Assembly (NCBI RefSeq): GCF_900170025.1
Contig: NZ_FWEX01000006.1
Coordinates: 2,819,236 to 2,883,235 of the forward strand
Direction of reading: 5' to 3'
From: Nitrospira sp. ND1
Lineage (GTDB): Bacteria; Nitrospirota; Nitrospiria; Nitrospirales; Nitrospiraceae
DNA length: 64,000 nt
Program-made: the position numbers and the translations under genes
The notes under the pieces: model-generated
What the model was told of the DNA's origin: nothing
What the model saw: the letters and a program-made list of their open reading frames with translations, nothing else
Databases searched by the model: none
Shown: in pieces, positions 14,898 through 52,282 of the stretch
Position numbering within the stretch: the first letter of the stretch is position 1
Layout of the letters: each line of letters begins with the position of its first letter

Positions 14898-14924
14898 AGG
14901 ACACCCTACCAGAAACAGTGCTCA

Positions 14925-15049
14925 CAGAATGTTCAAAAAGGCTGTCCAGCAAGGCCGCAGGAAGCACGGTGACTGAGGCGTACCCTTCGGGTATGTCGTA
15001 GGAAGACGTGCGACGAGAACGCCGCTGGCAGATCTTTTTCAACATTCTG
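14925..15049. repeat. Palindromic intergenic repeat, copy 1 (125 bp)
   Basis: Inverted termini CAGAATGTTcAAAAAg and the complement of TTTTTCAACATTCTG bound a 125-bp element. It contains the family core GTCCAGCAAGGCCGCAG and a central CGTACCCTTCGGGTA stem. It lies exactly between the second permease gene, whose stop begins at 15052, and the ATPase gene of an ABC operon. No coding capacity. Confidence 0.75.
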
Positions 15050-15865
15050 CTAGCCTTTTACCGCCCCGGCGGACAATCCGCTCACAATCCATCGTTGACA
15101 TAGCAGCACGACCACGATCAGTGGAAGGGTCGCCACCACGGAGGCTGCGGCCAGCTCTCCCCAGGGCATGGTGAATTCTCCCTGGAAGAGGGCGATGCCG
15201 ACAGGAAGGGTCTGTTGCTCCGGCTGGGTCAGGATCAGGAGGGCGAAGAAAAACTCGTTCCAGGCATAGATCAAGATCAGAATCGCGGCGGTGAAAATCC
15301 CCGGGGTCGCCAGCGGAAGCGTGATCCGGAACAGAGTTGTCCAGGGCCCGCAACCATCCACGCGTGCCGCATCTTCCAACTCCGGCGGCAATTCCTTGAA
15401 GAAGCTGGCCAGAATCCAGATCGCCAACGGCAGGGTGAGGGCCACATAGGGCAGCACGACGCCCCACCGGTGGTTGAGCCCGCCGATTGTGTCGAGCAGT
15501 CGCCAGACGGGTCCGGCAATGGCCATTTGAGGAAACATCGAGACGCAGAGCAACACGGCCAGAATACCTTGTTTGCCGGGGATGGTCAGCCGGGCTAATG
15601 CATAAGCTGCCGGGATGGCGAACAGGAGAGCCAGCACAGTTGTGGCGCCGGCCACGACGACGCTGTTCAGCACATAGTCGAAGAGATGATGGTCGAAGAG
15701 GGCTGAGCGATAGAATCCCAGGTTGCCTGAGGGCCACCAGGCGGGCGGCGCGACTTCGATCTCACCTTGCGACTTGAACGACGTGAGGACAAACCAGAGG
15801 AACGGCAGCAGACTGAGTCCCACCGTACCGAGGATGCCGAGTGCGAGAAGAATCCGACGATTCAT
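15050..15865 (-). CDS. Sugar ABC transporter permease (MalG-like)
   Basis: The protein has 271 residues from the ATG that overlaps the stop of the preceding permease (ATGA). It has six hydrophobic segments and the CUT1 signature: FKELPPELEDAARVDGCGPWTTLFRITLPLATPG, the EAA loop that contacts the ATPase. Its N-terminus MNRRILLALGILGTVGLSLLPFLWF is typical of MalG/UgpE/SugB proteins. A longer frame upstream lacks membrane-protein character and is not the start. Confidence 0.92.
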   Translation of the reverse strand: MNRRILLALGILGTVGLSLLPFLWFVLTSFKSQGEIEVAPPAWWPSGNLGFYRSALFDHHLFDYVLNSVVVAGATTVLALLFAIPAAYALARLTIPGKQGILAVLLCVSMFPQMAIAGPVWRLLDTIGGLNHRWGVVLPYVALTLPLAIWILASFFKELPPELEDAARVDGCGPWTTLFRITLPLATPGIFTAAILILIYAWNEFFFALLILTQPEQQTLPVGIALFQGEFTMPWGELAAASVVATLPLIVVVLLCQRWIVSGLSAGAVKG

Positions 15866-16773
15866 GTTCGCCTGCGCTCCAAGAGACTCGAGCCGATGGC
15901 GCGCAGGTACGTCAACGACAGCGCCAGGATCATCAGGAACACGGCTACGGAGACGGCAGAGCCGTATCCGATGCGGCCTTCCGTGAAGAGGGTTTGGTAG
16001 CCATAGAACTGAAGGACCTGCGTGGCGTCGCCCGGGCCGCCTTGGGTCATCACGAACACCAGATCGAAGACACGAAACGCATCCATGGTCCGAAATAAGA
16101 GCGCGAGCAATAGTGCCGGTTTCAGCAGCGGCAGGGTGATGTGCCAAAACCGCTGCCAGACGGTGGCCCCATCCACACGCGCCGCGTCATAGAGATCGTC
16201 GGGAATGACCTGGAGGCCGGCCAGGATCAGCAACGCGGCGAACGAGGATGTCTTCCAGACGTCCGCCAGTACGACGATGCCGAACGCCACGCCCGGATAG
16301 GCCAGCCAGGGGATATAGTCGGTGACCTGTTCGCCGAACAACAATAAGTTGGCGAACCCGTATTGGTCATTGAAGATATAGCGCCACAGTTGCGACGCGA
16401 CGACTGTCGGAATGGCCCAGGGAATCAGGATCGCCGCCCGCACGAGACCACGCCCGCGAAACCGCTCATGAATCACCAGCGCAATGATCAGTCCGCAGGC
16501 CAACTCCAGCAGTGTCGAGAGGATGACGAAGGCGAGGGTGACGGCCAGCGCCTGCTGTGCTACCGGATCGCGCACCAGCATCAGATAGTTGTCGAAGCCG
16601 ACGAACGGACTGCCGAGCTGCGGCAGCCCGATGAAAATATTGTGCAGGCTGAGCCAGAGCGAATCCAACACGGGGTACAGTGCGAAGACCATTGTTACGA
16701 GCAGCGCCGGTGCCACCATCGTCCAGGCCGCCAGGCTGTCGCGATTTCGCAGGATTGAGGCGGCGCGGATCAT
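15862..16773 (-). CDS. Sugar ABC transporter permease (MalF/UgpA-like)
   Basis: The protein has 303 residues. The first transmembrane helix is MVAPALLVTMVFALYPVLDSLWLSL, and the EAA loop reads DDLYDAARVDGATVWQRFWHITLPLLKP. Downstream, VFVMTQGGPGDATQVLQFYGYQ is a further CUT1 hallmark. It overlaps the binding-protein gene upstream and malG downstream by four bases each, so the three genes are translationally coupled. Confidence 0.93.
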   Translation of the reverse strand: MIRAASILRNRDSLAAWTMVAPALLVTMVFALYPVLDSLWLSLHNIFIGLPQLGSPFVGFDNYLMLVRDPVAQQALAVTLAFVILSTLLELACGLIIALVIHERFRGRGLVRAAILIPWAIPTVVASQLWRYIFNDQYGFANLLLFGEQVTDYIPWLAYPGVAFGIVVLADVWKTSSFAALLILAGLQVIPDDLYDAARVDGATVWQRFWHITLPLLKPALLLALLFRTMDAFRVFDLVFVMTQGGPGDATQVLQFYGYQTLFTEGRIGYGSAVSVAVFLMILALSLTYLRAIGSSLLERRRT

Positions 16774-28501: not shown

Positions 28502-28626
28502 GCAGGATGGTCAAAACGGCCGTTCAGCAAGGCCGCAGCGAGCGAAGGGCCAAGGCGTACCCTTGCGGTACGTTGAGGTTCTGAATGAGGCGAGAACGAA
28601 GCTGACGGTCGTTTTCACCATCCTGC
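28502..28626. repeat. Palindromic intergenic repeat, copy 2 (125 bp)
   Basis: Terminal GCAGGATGGTcAAAACG and the complement of CGTTTTCACCATCCTGC match at 16 of 17 positions. The interior contains the core TTCAGCAAGGCCGCAGCGAG and a CGTACCCTTGCGGTACG stem. It lies between the convergent murU and NtrC-family genes. Exact length equals copy 1. Confidence 0.8.
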
Positions 28627-37354: not shown

Positions 37355-38788
37355 ATGGGTGATCCAAAAGGCTTTCTAAAATACGCGCGTGAGGGACCGA
37401 AGCGGAAACCGGTCGAGTTGCGTGTGCTCGATTGGAAGGAAATGTACGAGCCGATCGCTGAGGACAAGCTTAAGGTCCAGGGCGCCCGTTGCATGGATTG
37501 CGGTGTGCCCTTTTGTCAGGGCAATACCGGTTGTCCGGTCGTGAACCTGATCCCGGAGTGGAACGATCTCGTCTACCGCGGGCGCTGGAAAGATGCGCTC
37601 AAAGCCCTGCACACCACGAATAATTTTCCCGAGTTCACCGGTCGGCTCTGCCCCGCGCCCTGCGAAGGGGCCTGCGTATTGGGTATCAACAGCGATCCCG
37701 TGTCGATCCGTGTGCTGGAATGGAACATCATCGACCGTGGCTTCAACGAAGGCCTGGTCGAACCGGCCATGCCGGTCAGAAAAACCGGCAAGACCGTCGC
37801 GATCATCGGTTCAGGACCGGCCGGTTTGGCGGCGGCGCAACAGCTGGCGCGGGCGGGACACACGGTGACGGTGTTCGAGAAGTCCGATCGCATCGGCGGG
37901 TTGTTGCGCTACGGGATTCCCGATTTCAAAATGGAAAAGTGGGTGATCGACCGGCGGCTGGAACAGATGAAGGCCGAAGGGGTGGAGTTCAAGACCGGCG
38001 TCACCGTGGGTAAAGATATGACTGGCGAGCAGTTACGCCAACAGTTCGACGCAGTCGGGCTGACCATGGGCGCCGAGATGGCGCGTGACCTGCCGGTCCC
38101 CGGTCGGGAACTCAAGGGCATCCATTTCGCCATGGAGTATCTGACCCAACAAAATAAGCGAACGGCAGGCATTTCCGTCTCCGAGGAACCAATCACCGCC
38201 AAGGGCAAACGGGTCATCATCATCGGCGGCGGCGATACCGGGTCCGATTGTCTGGGAACCGCACATCGTCAGGGGTGCAGCGAAGCCCACCAGTTTGAAG
38301 TGTTGCCGGAGCCGCCCCCGTCGCGTTCGACTTCGACGCCCTGGCCGCTTTGGCCCATGCAACTCCGCACGTCGCATGCGCACGAAGAAGGCTGCGATCG
38401 CCAGTGGAGCGTCTCCACCACCAAGTTTACCGGCCATAACGGCCATGTCACCAAGCTGCATGCCAATCGCGTCAAGTTCGAGGGCGGCAAGTTCGTGTCG
38501 ATGCCGAATACGGACTTTGAATTGGATGCGGACCTCGTGTTGCTCGCCATGGGTTTCACGGGCCCGGTCAGAAACGGTTTTCTCGACAGCCTCGGCGTCA
38601 CCTATGATGCGCGCGGTTGCGTCACCGTGGACGACAACTTCATGACCAACCTCGACGGCGTCTTTGCCGGCGGCGATACCAAGCGCGGCGCCTCCCTCAT
38701 CGTCTGGGCCATCGCCGAAGGGCGCAAGATGGCGGCAGGCGTGGATAAGTATCTGCAAGCGAATAAGTCTGTGAAGACTGGCCGCTGA
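37355..38788 (+). CDS. gltD: Glutamate synthase, small subunit
   Basis: The protein has 477 residues. N-terminal cysteine clusters for the two 4Fe-4S centres are visible: ARCMDCGVPFCQGNTGCPV and RLCPAPCEGACVLG. An FAD-binding GSGPAGLAAAQQLARAG follows near residue 150, the NADPH-binding IIGGGDTGSDCLG near 290, and the closing GVFAGGDTKRGASLIVWAIAEGR. It passes electrons from NADPH to the large subunit. A copy of the palindromic repeat begins at its stop codon. Confidence 0.97.
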   Translation: MGDPKGFLKYAREGPKRKPVELRVLDWKEMYEPIAEDKLKVQGARCMDCGVPFCQGNTGCPVVNLIPEWNDLVYRGRWKDALKALHTTNNFPEFTGRLCPAPCEGACVLGINSDPVSIRVLEWNIIDRGFNEGLVEPAMPVRKTGKTVAIIGSGPAGLAAAQQLARAGHTVTVFEKSDRIGGLLRYGIPDFKMEKWVIDRRLEQMKAEGVEFKTGVTVGKDMTGEQLRQQFDAVGLTMGAEMARDLPVPGRELKGIHFAMEYLTQQNKRTAGISVSEEPITAKGKRVIIIGGGDTGSDCLGTAHRQGCSEAHQFEVLPEPPPSRSTSTPWPLWPMQLRTSHAHEEGCDRQWSVSTTKFTGHNGHVTKLHANRVKFEGGKFVSMPNTDFELDADLVLLAMGFTGPVRNGFLDSLGVTYDARGCVTVDDNFMTNLDGVFAGGDTKRGASLIVWAIAEGRKMAAGVDKYLQANKSVKTGR

Positions 38789-38887
38789 AAAATCCTCCCA
38801 GCCTCGTCTCGCTTCGCTCAAACCCTCAACGTACCTCAACCCGTACGCTTCGGGCTTTTGCTCGCTGCGGCCTAGCTGGATAGGCTA
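38788..38887. repeat. Palindromic intergenic repeat, copy 3 (degenerate ends)
   Basis: In reverse orientation this segment contains the family core (ATCCAGCTAGGCCGCAGCGAG) and a CGTACGGGTTGAGGTACG region followed by GAGCGAAGCGAGACGAGGCTGGGAGGATTTTTC. The terminal inverted repeat is largely lost on one side. It lies directly after gltD and marks the left flank of the Hachiman island. Confidence 0.65.
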
Positions 38888-39105
38888 TTAGAGCGGCCTG
38901 GGCTGCATAAAGATCCTTCGTTGAGACCCCAACCCGGCTGCTAATTGTCCTCTGATCCGCTAGAATGGCGCCGTGCATCAATGATGTTCTAGGCAAATTC
39001 AGCGGACCGCAAAAGTTTAGAAAGGACTCCCGCTACATTTTCTGCGGCTCTCGCCAGCGTGCCAAAACCGCAATCAGGATCGCGGTTTATTGATCGGGGG
39101 ACGAC
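38888..39105. other. Upstream region of the Hachiman operon
   Basis: No gene. A -10-like TAGAAT occurs at 38961-38966, without a convincing -35. The base composition and short A/T-rich patches differ from the flanking glt genes. The GTG start of hamA is preceded by a G-rich stretch (TCGGGGGACGAC). Confidence 0.4.
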
Positions 39106-39888
39106 GTGGGGCTGTATGAGAGGTGGTGCAAGTCCACAAAAAAAACGGACAAGCGCAAGCACTACTGGACCTATGTTGAGAAGGATGGCGGCCGCATTGA
39201 GATCCGCAATGATCTCGCCGAAACCATCCGCTCGCACTACGACCGACTCGAACGCATCGCCGAGGATGTAAATCGACTTGGATACAAGGTCGCCAGTGGA
39301 ATACTCAGCACGGCAATGCCTCAAACTGCCAAGGGCCGTTCCGGCGACTTCGGCGAAATTCTCGCGACCGAACTGGTCGAGGAAGAGATCGGGCTTCGAG
39401 TCCCCGTGCGTCGTCTCCGTTACAAGGACGGCCGTAACATGGCCATGCGCGGTGACGACTTCATCGGTGCTGGATACGATGGAGACGGCGAGAAGCTCTG
39501 GCTCCTGAAGGGTGAGGCCAAGAGCAACAAGGTACTCGGCAAGGCCACGATCATGAGCGCCCGCAAGGTGCTCAACCGCGACAATGGCCGTTGTACGCCC
39601 GACTCACTGCTGTTCGTCGCCAATCGCTTGTTGGAGAGTAATGACCCGGTGGACAACGAGCTAGGCCGCAGCCTTCGTGACGAAGTAGGTCTAAAGTCCC
39701 TCCGTGCCGATCGCATCGACCACATGCTCTTTACGGTGTCTGGTAACGGTCCCCACGCCTCGCTGGAGAAGGACCTCGACACCATCGGGACCAACCGGGA
39801 CCATTATGTCGTGAACATCCACGTCGAAGACCACCAAGACTTCATCGCGGCCATGTACCTGGAGGCAGAAGACCTTGGAGACGATTGA
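39106..39888 (+). CDS. hamA: Hachiman anti-phage system protein HamA (DUF1837 nuclease)
   Basis: The protein has 260 residues, GTG start, with an in-frame stop 15 bases upstream fixing the N-terminus. The DUF1837 core shows GDFGEILATELVEEEIG at 80-96 and a PD-(D/E)xK-like site: Asp117/118 in RGDDFIGAG, then GEAKSNK with Glu137 and Lys139. In studied Hachiman systems HamA is the effector that degrades DNA once released by HamB, and these are the positions expected for catalysis. The stop overlaps the start of hamB. The assignment rests on family motif plus the neighbouring helicase. Confidence 0.82.
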   Translation: MGLYERWCKSTKKTDKRKHYWTYVEKDGGRIEIRNDLAETIRSHYDRLERIAEDVNRLGYKVASGILSTAMPQTAKGRSGDFGEILATELVEEEIGLRVPVRRLRYKDGRNMAMRGDDFIGAGYDGDGEKLWLLKGEAKSNKVLGKATIMSARKVLNRDNGRCTPDSLLFVANRLLESNDPVDNELGRSLRDEVGLKSLRADRIDHMLFTVSGNGPHASLEKDLDTIGTNRDHYVVNIHVEDHQDFIAAMYLEAEDLGDD

Positions 39889-42800
39889 CGAACTGACGGC
39901 GTTCCTGACGACTGCGACCGTAGACGGTATCCTTGGGCGTCTCCTCTATCGTGGCGCGGCCTGGTCGCTCATGCGGGCAGAGGGCAAACTGCCGCCCAAT
40001 GCGCCGCCCCTTGGGGGGGCAATTGACACTGATCTCGCCGAACACGGCTTTGCCCTGCTCCGAGGCGCGATGGCCCTGCGTGCTCAAGCTGGTGCTTCGG
40101 AGCTGACCAGCAAGGCTTTCGAGCGTGCTGCCAATGCGTTTGAAGCCCTAGTGCGCAACGCTGACCCCGAGGCGCCTGATCGCGGGTTCCGCCGTACCAT
40201 AGCCGCCTGTGCGTACCATCTGGCCGGCTTCTCGGCCGTCGCCTATTCGCTCTTCAACGAGACGGCAGGCGACCTCAACACATCGCCGGGCGAAAAGGCG
40301 ATCCGCCATCTGATCCTGCGAGATCTTGACCAGTTGCGTGGCTTCGTTCGCGGATGGCTGGACGACGAGGCTCATGGTGACGAGCAGATCGCTCAAGCCT
40401 TGCGGGGCGAAGAACCCGACGTTGACGAGGTGCTGTCGACCATCCTCAATACGACGATCTGTCGGGCCCTGCTGTTCTTCGATTTCGCGCTTGAGACGGG
40501 CGAATACCAGCCGATTGAAAGCGCACGGGCTTTGCTTGCCACGGCAGTTAGCCTGGCAGACAACGCTGGGAATGTTCCGCTGTGGTGGATTTCGAACCTC
40601 TGCCGCCACCTAATCGACGATCTGTGGCAGCACTCGTTGCACCAGAACCTGCCGACCGAGCCGCCCAAAGGCACAGAGGAAACATATCCGGACCTGCGGC
40701 GACTGTTCATTTCTTCGCTCTATGCTCGCAAGACTTCGGAGGTGGAGCTATGGCCGTCACAACGTGAAGCCGCCCGACGTTCCACGGACGTCACGGACGA
40801 TTTAGTCGTTGCCCTACCAACTAGCGCGGGAAAGACTCGGGTGGCTGAGATCGCCGCCCTGATGACCCTGTCCTACGCACGACGGGTGCTGATCGTCACG
40901 CCGCTGCGCGCCTTATCGGCTCAGGCCGAGAGGTCCTTCAGAAAGACCTTTGCGCCTCTCGGCTTCAAGGTCTCCTCGCTCTACGGCGCCAGCGGCCTTT
41001 CGGCCGGTGATGAAGACGCTCTACGCATCTGCGAGATCATAATTGCGACGCCCGAAAAGCTCGACTTCGCACTAAGAAGTGATCCGTCACTGATCGACAA
41101 TGTAGGGCTTATCGTCCTCGATGAAGGGCACATGATCGGTCCGAGTGAGCGCGAAATCCGCTACGAGACTCTGGTGCAGCGTTTACTTCGGCGTTCAGAC
41201 GCGGCCGAACGCCGGATCGTCTGTCTTTCCGCAATCTTGCCGAGCGGCGACGAACTCGACGACCTCACGGCCTGGATTCGTGCCGACGAACCAGGTGAAC
41301 CGGTGCGTTCTGGCTGGCGTCCCACGCGACAGCGGTTTGGTGCGCTCACTTGGCGCGGCAAGGACGCGCTCCTACAGTTCGACCTCGACGACGATGGTCC
41401 TTTTCTCGACAGGTTCGTTGTGGAGAAACCAGCGCTAGGGACGGAGCGGAAGCCTTATCCACGGGCGAACTCCCATCTAGCTTTGTTCGCAGCATGGGAG
41501 TTCGCGAGGCAGGGCAAGCGCACCCTGATTTTCTCCACCCAGGCGAACTGGGTCGAGGGGTATGGCAAACAGGTCGTGGATCTTTGTAAACGCGGTTATC
41601 TGGACTCGTTGCTAGATGACAAGATGTCGATCGCCCGCGCTCTGGAGGTCGGCAAGGAATGGCTAGGCGAGGATCATCCCGCTGTGGCTAGCCTGAAGGC
41701 GGGCGTCGCAATCCACCATGGCCGACTCCCGAGCCCGTTCCTGCGTGAGCTGGAGATTCTTCTGTCCGAGGGCGTGCTGAAGGTGATCGTCGCCTCGCCC
41801 ACGCTCTCGCAGGGTCTCAACCTCAACGCCGCTGTCCTGCTGGTGCCCGCGCTCCATCGGTCGAGCAAGAAGATCAAAGGCGAGGAGTTCGCTAACGTTG
41901 CTGGCCGTGCGGGTCGTGCGTTCGTCGACGTCGAGGGGCTGATCGTCCATGTTATGTTCGACAAGATTAGATGGCGCAAGAAAGAATGGAGGGGGCTGGT
42001 CGCCTCCGCCAAGGCTCGCACGCTAAAAAGCGGTCTTATCCAGATCGTTGCTGAGATTCTTAACCGTCTGACGCGCGAGGGTGTTCTGGATCGAGAGGAC
42101 GCTTGGGAATATCTCGCCAATTCCCGCGAAGCCTGGCGATCGCCTGACGAAGAAGCTGTGGTGGCTGATCGTCTGACTCCTGCCGTGGAATACAGTGCGG
42201 AAGACGATGCCGAAGAAGGCAGTAGCGGCGACGAAGAGGATAGCATCGACGAAAGGCCTCTGTCCCATCTCGTCGAACGCCTCGATTCAACCGTGTTTGG
42301 TCTGATCGAAGCATTGGATGCTGATCGAGCTGACCTACCGAAGCTCTTGGACGAAGCACTTAAGGGATCGCTCTGGGCTCGTCAGATCGCCCGTGAAGAA
42401 GAGGATGTCGCCCCTCTGCACAGAAAGGTGCTCGGCGCACGCGCCGACCTCATCTGGAGGACGACCATAGCGCAAGCACGGCGCGGACATTTCGCTATGG
42501 GAGTCGGGCTAGAAGCTGGCCTAACCATCGACGCCATGGCCGACGAGTTGGCCGAACTTGTCGACCGGGCCGACGCCGCCGCGCTGGGCGGTGACGTCGA
42601 CGAACTCGCCCACGCGCTTAGCAGTCTCGGCGAACGCCTTCTATTTATGCGGCCATTCATCCCCGACAAGGCGAACGCGTTGCCGGAAAATTGGAAGGCT
42701 ATCCTTCGCAGTTGGGTGTCCGGGGAGGAAGTCTCCAAAATCGGACAGCAGAACATGCGGTCAGTCGAAGAGTCCTTCACCTATCGCTTAGTCTGGGCGC

Positions 42801-43378
42801 TGGAAGCCGTTCGCACCCGTAGAATGTCCCTTGGTTGGTCGCCGGAAACGGTGGCGGGCGGCGCAGCGGCTGCGATCGAAACCGGCGTCCCGCAGTTCAT
42901 GATGGCGATGCTGATCCGCGCGGGCCTTCCGTCAAGGCGGGCGGCTATGGCGGCGATCGAGAATGCGAAGCCTGTCTTCGTCACGCCTGCGGAGATGCGG
43001 GCGTGGCTCGAGTCCGACGAGATCACAGCCTACACCGACGCTGGCGGGTGGCCCACGGCCGACACCGCCGCACTATGGGCACGATTCCGAACCGAAGCCC
43101 TCAACGTCGGCATTCAGAAATGGTCAGTCGAACACTACAAGCGGTTGCTCGACGCTGAGGCCCCCCCGCCCTCCGGCCTCTACCGCATCGTCACCGACGA
43201 GGGTGATGGACGGACTTGGCTCACAACCCCCGACTACCAACCGGTCGCAGCATTCAAGAAGCCAGCTGTCGACCCTAAACCCAGCCTCTTCTCGGGCCGG
43301 CTGCCAGAAAAGGGTAGGCTCGTGGAAGCCTTGCGCGTCGGCCGCGGAAAACTGAGCTGGCCGCGCGCCGATCCGTAA
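39875..43378 (+). CDS. hamB: Hachiman anti-phage system helicase HamB
   Basis: The protein has 1167 residues. TTG start with GGAGG nine bases upstream, overlapping hamA by 14 bases, so the genes are translationally coupled. About 310 helical residues precede the SF2 helicase core: Walker A PTSAGKT at 315-321, DEGH box at 416-419 (a DEAH variant), SAILPSG near 452, SPTLSQGLNLNAAV and motif VI NVAGRAGRA at 674-682. An acidic insert (EDDAEEGSSGDEED) lies near 775. A helical C-terminal part of about 400 residues ends with a proline-rich tail. HamB senses abnormal or invading DNA and controls HamA. Confidence 0.85.
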   Translation: METIDELTAFLTTATVDGILGRLLYRGAAWSLMRAEGKLPPNAPPLGGAIDTDLAEHGFALLRGAMALRAQAGASELTSKAFERAANAFEALVRNADPEAPDRGFRRTIAACAYHLAGFSAVAYSLFNETAGDLNTSPGEKAIRHLILRDLDQLRGFVRGWLDDEAHGDEQIAQALRGEEPDVDEVLSTILNTTICRALLFFDFALETGEYQPIESARALLATAVSLADNAGNVPLWWISNLCRHLIDDLWQHSLHQNLPTEPPKGTEETYPDLRRLFISSLYARKTSEVELWPSQREAARRSTDVTDDLVVALPTSAGKTRVAEIAALMTLSYARRVLIVTPLRALSAQAERSFRKTFAPLGFKVSSLYGASGLSAGDEDALRICEIIIATPEKLDFALRSDPSLIDNVGLIVLDEGHMIGPSEREIRYETLVQRLLRRSDAAERRIVCLSAILPSGDELDDLTAWIRADEPGEPVRSGWRPTRQRFGALTWRGKDALLQFDLDDDGPFLDRFVVEKPALGTERKPYPRANSHLALFAAWEFARQGKRTLIFSTQANWVEGYGKQVVDLCKRGYLDSLLDDKMSIARALEVGKEWLGEDHPAVASLKAGVAIHHGRLPSPFLRELEILLSEGVLKVIVASPTLSQGLNLNAAVLLVPALHRSSKKIKGEEFANVAGRAGRAFVDVEGLIVHVMFDKIRWRKKEWRGLVASAKARTLKSGLIQIVAEILNRLTREGVLDREDAWEYLANSREAWRSPDEEAVVADRLTPAVEYSAEDDAEEGSSGDEEDSIDERPLSHLVERLDSTVFGLIEALDADRADLPKLLDEALKGSLWARQIAREEEDVAPLHRKVLGARADLIWRTTIAQARRGHFAMGVGLEAGLTIDAMADELAELVDRADAAALGGDVDELAHALSSLGERLLFMRPFIPDKANALPENWKAILRSWVSGEEVSKIGQQNMRSVEESFTYRLVWALEAVRTRRMSLGWSPETVAGGAAAAIETGVPQFMMAMLIRAGLPSRRAAMAAIENAKPVFVTPAEMRAWLESDEITAYTDAGGWPTADTAALWARFRTEALNVGIQKWSVEHYKRLLDAEAPPPSGLYRIVTDEGDGRTWLTTPDYQPVAAFKKPAVDPKPSLFSGRLPEKGRLVEALRVGRGKLSWPRADP

Positions 43379-49138: not shown

Positions 49139-49188
49139 CAGGGGGGCAGGTGCGTCGTGGTACTCGTTTGGTTCACTGAGGAGTGTGC

Positions 49189-49818
49189 ATGATTCGCAAG
49201 ACCTTTTCCGTTCCGCCGCTCGGTTGTAACTGTTCGATCATCGGAGATCCGATCACGAAACAAGCGATTGTGGTCGATCCGGGCGGGGCACCCGAGCGCA
49301 TTCTGCAGGAAGTCCGCGCGATGGGGTTGACGGTGGTGAGCATTGTGCACACCCATGCGCATTTCGATCACTTTCTCGCATCGGGAGCGATGAAGCAGGC
49401 GACCGGCGCCGCACTCTGCCTGCATCCCGATGATCGTCCTCTGTGGGACATTCTGGAGATGCAGTGCCGCATGTTCGGCGTGCCCTATGTCCCGGCGCCA
49501 CCGCCGGACTATTGGTTGAAGGATGAGGAGCGGTTGGCGATCGGCGAGTTGGAAGGGATCGCGTTGCACACGCCCGGGCATACCCCCGGTTCCATGTGTT
49601 TTCACTTTCCTGCTGCGAAGCTGGTGGTGGCCGGTGACACCTTGTTTCGCGGATCCATCGGCCGCACCGATCTCTGGGGCGGAGATTTTGATGTCATCGA
49701 ACAGTCGATCCGGGAACGACTGTATACGCTCGACGAACAGACTGCCGTGGTCACCGGGCACGGGCCCGAGACGGAGATTGGCCGGGAGCGGGAGACCAAT
49801 TCCTTTGTGCGAGCCTAG
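49189..49818 (+). CDS. MBL-fold hydrolase (glyoxalase II-like)
   Basis: The protein has 209 residues with GAGGAG just upstream of the ATG. The metal motif HTHAHFDH is intact, followed by the second His in HTPGHTPGSMCFHFP, the bridging Asp in VVAGDTLFRGSIGRTDL, and the last His in VVTGHGPETEIGRERETN. The pattern is that of single-domain hydroxyacylglutathione-hydrolase-like proteins (YcbL type). It probably cleaves a thioester. A palindromic repeat begins at its stop. Confidence 0.93.
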   Translation: MIRKTFSVPPLGCNCSIIGDPITKQAIVVDPGGAPERILQEVRAMGLTVVSIVHTHAHFDHFLASGAMKQATGAALCLHPDDRPLWDILEMQCRMFGVPYVPAPPPDYWLKDEERLAIGELEGIALHTPGHTPGSMCFHFPAAKLVVAGDTLFRGSIGRTDLWGGDFDVIEQSIRERLYTLDEQTAVVTGHGPETEIGRERETNSFVRA

Positions 49819-49945
49819 CAGGATGCGGAAAAAGTCCGTCCAGCGGCGTTCTCGCTTCGTTCAGAGGATCACCGGACGGCGCAGAGTACGATTCACCTCT
49901 TCGCTCGCTGCGGCCTCGCTGGACGGCCTTTTTGCGCATCCTGCT
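49817..49945. repeat. Palindromic intergenic repeat, copy 4 (129 bp)
   Basis: Terminal AGCAGGATGCGgAAAAAG and the complement of TTTTTGCGCATCCTGCT match almost perfectly. The core is in reverse orientation (GTCCAGCGAGGCCGCAGCGAG). It overlaps the MBL stop codon and separates that gene from the DUF151 gene. Confidence 0.8.
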
Positions 49946-50069
49946 GGCGATTCTGACGCTGCCATGGCATGCGAGCTGTCCGGGATGTATTACGCAAGAA
50001 TTGACTTTTCCACAGTTTGGTAGCAGCGGGGGCTCATAGCAGCTTCCATGTGAACCACAGGAGGGAACC

Positions 50070-50745: not shown

Positions 50746-51069
50746 ATGAAGAATCAACGCAAGCATGAACGTGTTCACGTTCAGTTTCGCAGTCATTTTT
50801 CGATGAAGGGGAAGATGCTGGCCGGAGACGGGGATCTGACCGACCTGTCTCCCGGCGGCTGTCGTATTCTCAGCTCGGTGCAGGTTCTGGTCGGCGCCGA
50901 GGTGGAGCTGTGCATTTTCCCGGGGGACAGTGCCAACCCCATTCTCATCGATGGGGCCACCGTGCGCTGGTGTCAGCCGAACGAATTCGGTCTCTCGTTT
51001 ACGAAGATCCGAGTGCCTGTGCAGCGCCAACTGACCGATGTCTGGCGCAAACTCGCCAAACCCGCCTAG
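50746..51069 (+). CDS. PilZ domain protein
   Basis: The protein has 107 residues starting at the ATG at 50746 with GGAGG 11 bases upstream. PilZ motifs for c-di-GMP binding: RKHERVHV (R-x3-R) at the N-terminus and DLSPGGCRI (DxSxxG). FGLSFTKI near the end completes the beta-barrel. Single-domain PilZ protein, a likely c-di-GMP effector in motility, adhesion or polysaccharide control. Confidence 0.87.
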   Translation: MKNQRKHERVHVQFRSHFSMKGKMLAGDGDLTDLSPGGCRILSSVQVLVGAEVELCIFPGDSANPILIDGATVRWCQPNEFGLSFTKIRVPVQRQLTDVWRKLAKPA

Positions 51070-51113
51070 CAGGCTGTCTTTCCAGCGGGCGTCCTCGCCG
51101 GCGCCACGATCAC

Positions 51114-52103: not shown

Positions 52104-52124
52104 GCCATCACTCCTGTATTCTTG

Positions 52125-52217
52125 CAGGATGCTGAAAGAGCCCGCCGGCCTCGTCCTCGCTTTGCCTCGGTGCTTCGCTCGCTGCGGCCTTGCTGGACGG
52201 CCCTGGTGAGCATCCTG
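52125..52217. repeat. Palindromic intergenic repeat, copy 5 (about 93 bp)
   Basis: CAGGATGCTGAAAGAG at the left and TGAGCATCCTG at the right are inverted copies. The core in reverse is GTCCAGCAAGGCCGCAGCGAG. The central stem of the longer copies has been lost. It lies just upstream of trpS. Confidence 0.75.
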
Positions 52218-52282
52218 AGTCGCTGGTCGATCTCGCCTGAAATTTCAATGGATCGATTTTCTTTCCACCGGCACCGCACCCG

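Follow-up and report, generated by a model that had tools for sequence, protein, structure and literature searches.

The DNA of Nitrospira sp. ND1 analysed here, a stretch of 64,000 nucleotides that we call the window, raises a simple question: What is the palindrome of about 125 bp that lies between two convergent genes at positions 28502-28626 (+), and how did it come to be repeated elsewhere in the same stretch? The initial annotation had described a dispersed family of five intergenic copies, and this description holds, for a profile of the family matches exactly the five sites listed (E-values for the 64-kb window from 3.5e-37 to 2.3e-16), all of them intergenic, and has zero matches in 20 dinucleotide-shuffled windows. 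The repeats have a direction, three of the five copies lying on the minus strand. Besides the noted copy (profile 28503-28625, E 3.5e-37), they comprise the hairpins at 14924-15050 (+; profile 14925-15049, E 7.3e-26), at 38777-38901 (-; profile 38779-38900, E 7.2e-26), the arms of which have diverged, and at 52124-52218 (-; profile 52125-52217, E 2.3e-16), which is reduced to 95 bp by deletion of the central loop, as well as a near full-length element of 209 bp at 49815-50023 (-; full-element profile 49794-50033, E 2.5e-62) that includes a 125-bp hairpin part at 49818-49944 (-; profile 49819-49943). The half-copy suggested at 51067-51110 did not stand up: since the profile misses it and no more than 11 bases there match the left end (CTAGCAGGCTG at 51066-51076, +), that site is at best a possible relic of the element.

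The palindrome is part of a larger unit. When the copies are aligned with their flanks, a subset has about 79 extra common bases on the left, starting CTAGCAGGCTGCGGAAAAAC, which is the right end in inverted form. The full element measures about 209 bp between its target copies and consists of a CTAG-flanked left end, a spacer of about 55 nt and the 125-bp imperfect hairpin, the right arm of which is the inverted right end of the element; its terminal inverted repeats are CAGGCTGCGGAAAAAC on the left and TTTTTCCGCATCCTG. The edges of homology are sharp and lie about 209 bp apart between unrelated loci, and one genome (G014) has about a dozen near-identical copies of 208-209 bp, each in different flanks. 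The element is short, within the size range of MITEs (below about 500 bp), and carries no transposase gene. The length of 125 bp given at the outset is thus right for the hairpin part and not for the entire element, as can be seen in the copy at 49815-50023, which keeps a second, outer left end; its right-end target copy, CTAG, lies at 49815-49818, and the left-end target copy at 50020-50023 has decayed. The other four window copies have retained the hairpin and not the left part, which is unrecognisable at 28502-28626, and a clear left end is absent from most copies in this genome; in all, 34 of 95 copies have the outer left end at -76 to -80 from the hairpin, and 2 have it at other distances. 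Movement of the 125-bp hairpin alone was considered and dropped, because the right flank shows a YTAR preference and the left flank none, and clear insertions are of the full unit. At eight loci (L081, L082, L087, L097, L098, L099, L102 and L174), extra palindromes (CCCGCCCACCCCGAGCCTGCCAAGACAGGCTC..., GTTCACGACGCGCGGAATAACGCGCGTC...) in the hairpin loop produce hairpins of 235-240 bp; these may be small mobile repeats of another kind that are nested within it.

Does this unit move? The 4-mers at the ends of 58 full elements are mostly CTAG, and seven elements have an identical 4-mer other than CTAG at both ends, against 0.62 expected by shuffling: The target is a 4-bp YTAR site, mostly CTAG, that is duplicated on insertion. 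A duplication of TA only is disfavoured, since CTAA, TTAG and CTAT pairs are concordant. In a search for empty sites, a check that the initial annotation had proposed, the flanks of twelve full elements were joined and compared with relatives, and uninterrupted sites that lack precisely the unit and keep one YTAR were found in several of them (L162-L164 for the element of L017, L165 for that of L029 and L166 for that of L121). What we see as repeats are very probably the copies, whole or in remnants, of a non-autonomous transposon of the MITE type; the empty sites, the 4-bp YTAR duplication and ends equal to those of IS5-family insertion sequences of about 1.3 kb argue for this, and the inverted ends, the many copies and the presence of these same-ended insertion sequences in sister genomes likewise bear out the "MITE-like" reading first put forward.

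Which transposase, then, serves an element without a gene of its own? In G023, a DDE_Tnp_1 locus is bounded by the element ends, TTAGCAGGCTGCGGAAAAAC ... GTTTTTCCGCAGCCTGTTAG, at a distance of 1.32 kb and with a TTAG on either side, and its transposase is of the IS5 family (NCBIfam transpos_IS5_4, 278.9 bits vs. a cut-off of 140; Pfam DUF772 and DDE_Tnp_1). IS5-family elements of about 1.3 kb that have these ends and a duplication of this kind occur in G023, G001 and G019, and relatives of the G023 insertion sequence, with identical or variant ends, are present in G001, G019, G030, G015, G022, G024 and G025. One variant end of G030, TTGAAAAAC, is found on both an insertion sequence (L244) and a mini-element (L062), and a second end type, TTGACAAAC, on a group of insertion sequences (L246-L249) and on the mini-elements L411, L437, L270 and L352, with L317 one base off. 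Across the order the element ends are variable, matching three IS5 end types. Judging from these identical ends, an IS5-family transposase is likely to be the partner that moves the mini-elements; in the window's own genome the partner transposase has no match at E<=1e-20. The G023 copy of the insertion sequence may be inactive, since the frame upstream of its 342-aa transposase frame (L189:940-1000) seems to be a continuation of the latter but is broken by a TGA; the copies in G001 have an open frame of 375 aa. Two other candidates for the partner were rejected, namely IS630 (PF13358), the transposases of which are not bounded by element ends, and RAYT or Y1-type (PF01797), which is neither linked to the elements nor bounded by their ends.

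RAYT proteins also belong to a different reading of the family, in which the repeats would be of REPIN type, moved by a RAYT tyrosine transposase that processes the hairpin as ssDNA. Like REP and REPIN sequences, the family consists of dispersed intergenic palindromes in a genome with one RAYT-like gene, and one strand folds better than the other as a single strand, as discussed below; but the elements show no systematic adjacency to RAYT genes in nine genomes, and the inverted ends, the 4-bp target duplication, the unit of about 209 bp and the full ends in common with IS5-type elements set the family apart from that group, so that we consider a REPIN origin very improbable. The single RAYT-like gene (L009:1024-1860; G000:C5:725832-726155) has a C-terminal helix-turn-helix and scores barely over the NCBIfam cut-off, and no family copy was found in its vicinity.

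The genome-wide search advised in the initial annotation did find further copies. From the searches and the genome stretches fetched around their matches, we count 42 blastn matches to the 125-bp copy in this genome and at least 53 good profile copies. The family was matched in 54 of the 61 searched genomes of the order and in all 19 genera sampled, and a core-derived pattern found at least 118 stretches over 84,980 species genomes; among the matches listed, 80 titled stretches bear the label Nitrospira, Nitrospiraceae or Nitrospirota/Nitrospirae, with one exception, labelled Nitrosospira NOB2. Over 4 kb, this uncultured record (L281, CAADGJ010000380.1) has the same sequence as one of the genomes in the window's genus, and its label is therefore probably wrong. 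DNA similar to the repeat was not found among the plasmids and phages searched, nor was this repeat found described in Nitrospira in a literature search of incomplete coverage.

The initial annotation would have taken the same copies at the same loci across distant genera as a sign of conservation instead of mobility. Recent copies do not behave in this way, having empty sites, but the place of the 28502 copy is occupied in most of the genus; the family is mobile, and some loci have nonetheless kept it. Of 29 genomes of the genus, 24, this genome included, have a family hairpin at the orthologous locus, and five are without it. The place has therefore long been occupied, through retention, conversion or re-insertion. 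The arms at this locus are of two types, CATCCTGC and CCTCCGG, and among the orthologues two are clear chimaeras and several contain insertions or deletions. In L386 and L390, the left arm GCAGGATGGT is of one type and the right arm, GCCTCCGG or GCTTCCGG, of the other; such mixed arms point to conversion or recombination between the two types of repeat, and their inability to pair fully at the foot indicates that pairing is not strictly required.

Throughout the order, the hairpin core is conserved and the ends are not. The order-wide set of 29 sequences has 96.6% paired cells, a value that becomes much lower when the pairing is slid, with double changes in 19 pairs vs. 7.5 in shuffles and 27 invariant columns, among them GGCCGCA and AGAAC of the inner loop. 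Counted by cells, which overstates independent events because the copies have common ancestry, there are 57 double changes in this set vs. 12.8 in shuffles and, among 93 copies, 244 compensatory changes that involve 26 pairs. In the window, the loop-deleted copy at 52124-52218 reaches a z of only -1.3, and the other four copies fold far more stably than shuffles (z -5.1 to -6.5 for the + strand of the element), among them the copy at 28502-28626 (RNA fold of -65.5 kcal/mol, z -5.9). The better fold is on the strand beginning GCAGGATGNTCAAAAAGG in 86 of the 93 copies, and single-side changes give G-U 147 times vs. 57 for A-C (57 vs. 10 by copies), while C>T and G>A are balanced in unpaired columns (84 and 88). 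Together, the compensatory changes, the G-U excess and this balance suggest that the strand beginning GCAGGATGNTCAAAAAGG has been selected to fold as a single strand, be it RNA or ssDNA. A stem flanked by A- and T-tracts, as expected of a bidirectional intrinsic terminator, is visible in the sequence, but its loop would be large and a simple scan predicted no terminator; the T-tract belongs to the transposon end and changes with the end type (TTTGTC in L411).

The position of the copies with respect to genes is equally uneven. The 53 copies of this genome are distributed over 31 tandem, 18 convergent and 2 divergent gaps, with 2 unresolved and none inside genes, vs. 43 tandem, 4 convergent and 17 divergent among copy-free gaps of at least 60 bp in the same stretches. 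Copies often sit at stop codons, as had been remarked at the outset: 23 of the 53 lie exactly on one. In 18 of these the right end lines up exactly with the stop codon of the gene that faces it, and about 5 more have a stop codon at the left end. The corresponding P values, which are approximate given that genes were called with a simple codon-based script and baseline intervals were drawn from the neighbourhoods of copies, are 1e-4 for convergent enrichment and 9e-4 for divergent depletion (Fisher), 1.6e-4 for the 23 stop-codon copies relative to the 20.7% of non-genic YTAR sites that serve as baseline, and 0.017 for the 18 right-end cases alone relative to the same baseline. Within the window, the right end of the copy at 14924-15050 is in register with the stop of gene 15050-16147 (-), which faces it, and the TAG stop of the gene upstream of copy 49818-49944, at 49183-49818 and with a metallo-beta-lactamase fold, sits exactly in the CTAG. 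Copies in tandem gaps have the same orientation as the genes in 16 cases and the opposite one in 15, so the strand-specific G-U bias is not accounted for by placement.

There are two rival readings of the core. It is possible, although we lean against it, that the core itself is a functional RNA or regulatory element, such as a terminator, an RNase III site or a small RNA, which the transposon ends merely spread: It is unchanged across the order while the ends differ, it has compensatory changes and a strand-specific G-U excess, and it is placed at 3' ends; yet Rfam models match neither the window nor any of six loci, truncated or chimaeric copies occur among orthologues, and the hairpin is missing at the 28502 locus in the five genomes mentioned above. 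We find it somewhat unlikely that the core is kept for transposition, as an enhancer-like or transposase-binding part, and not for the host. The inner left arm resembles a transposon end and pairs with the right end, the sequence of which it tracks better than does the outer left end (L044, L051), and wherever the element has spread its core has stayed conserved; against this, the hairpin outlasts the left end, and so persists once the unit can no longer move, and insertion sequences move without such a core.

Returning to the MITE mobilised by an IS5-family transposase, its history could have run as follows. The transposase, acting in trans, would recognise the ends and insert the unit of about 209 bp into a 4-bp YTAR site, duplicating the site; since YTAR includes TAA or TAG, as judged from sequence, insertion at a gene's own stop codon would keep the stop intact. 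Insertions at stops and gene 3' ends generally would survive and those in genes or divergent promoter regions would be lost, after which the left part would decay and the hairpin core remain recognisable, possibly giving the transcripts of one or both neighbouring genes a structured 3' end or a terminator. The gap context (18 convergent, 2 divergent) and the conserved base pairs suit such a role, for which the RNA-stabilising hairpin and the bidirectional terminator of the initial annotation are candidates. We hold with good confidence to this explanation as a whole, namely an IS5-mobilised MITE that survives at stops and 3' ends, with its hairpin perhaps working at transcript ends; the role of the retained hairpin at those ends, taken by itself, is a tentative proposal that we rate a little short of even. 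A bolder version, which we regard as doubtful, is that one structured core, selected to fold as an RNA or ssDNA strand, crossed the whole order via the ends of different IS5-family transposons, inserting at stops as a ready-made transcript end. If true, this would amount to a mobile 3'-end module on borrowed transposon ends, more than an ordinary MITE.

How does the family compare with known systems? MITEPsy1 of Pseudomonas syringae, according to the portion of its published description used here, is gene-less and has inverted ends with CTGAAAAAG, a tentative IS5-type assignment, a CTAG or YTAA target and a 4-nt duplication (PMC3189936). The Nitrospira family is like it in lacking genes, in inverted ends containing CTGAAAAAG, in a CTAG/YTAA-type target with 4-nt duplication and in a possible IS5 origin. 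Unlike our family, MITEPsy1 is 100 nt long, has few copies and has been demonstrated to transpose, and the same portion reports no long hairpin core conserved throughout an order (PMC3189936). QMITE2 of Coxiella burnetii, of 150-190 bp, lies mainly in 3' untranslated and intergenic regions, is a source of small RNA and is kept between strains (PMC5896051); it is similar to our family in size and in placement mainly at gene 3' ends or between genes, but has variable duplications of 7-11 nt and a GTAG REP inside, and no sequence was noted in common. ERIC sequences are intergenic imperfect palindromes of about 127 bp (PMC2759123), present in tens to hundreds of copies in Enterobacteriaceae and Vibrionaceae (PMC10969869). 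Size, intergenic habit and imperfect palindrome are alike in the Nitrospira family, and the hosts differ. ERIC sequences have TA as target, and we know of no partner transposase for them. The conserved order-wide core with exchangeable ends could be the part of our family that goes beyond known kinds of MITE. In nitrite-oxidising Nitrospira and the rest of the order, the intergenic palindromes, tens of them in each genome, become one defined mobile family with a visible partner, a test case for transposon life at stop codons; should the core turn out to function as a terminator or RNA, the family would be a case of a mobile element that distributes transcript ends through the genome.

Two minor observations concern the surroundings of particular copies. 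At L022:6647-7034 (G000:C5), three family hairpins lie in direct tandem with a spacing of about 130 bp. Just downstream of the copy at 38777-38901, a Hachiman-type anti-phage defence pair occupies positions 39106-43378 (+) of the window, with HamA (PADLOC HamA1, E 3.6e-109) as its first gene and the HamB helicase (1619 bits) as its second.
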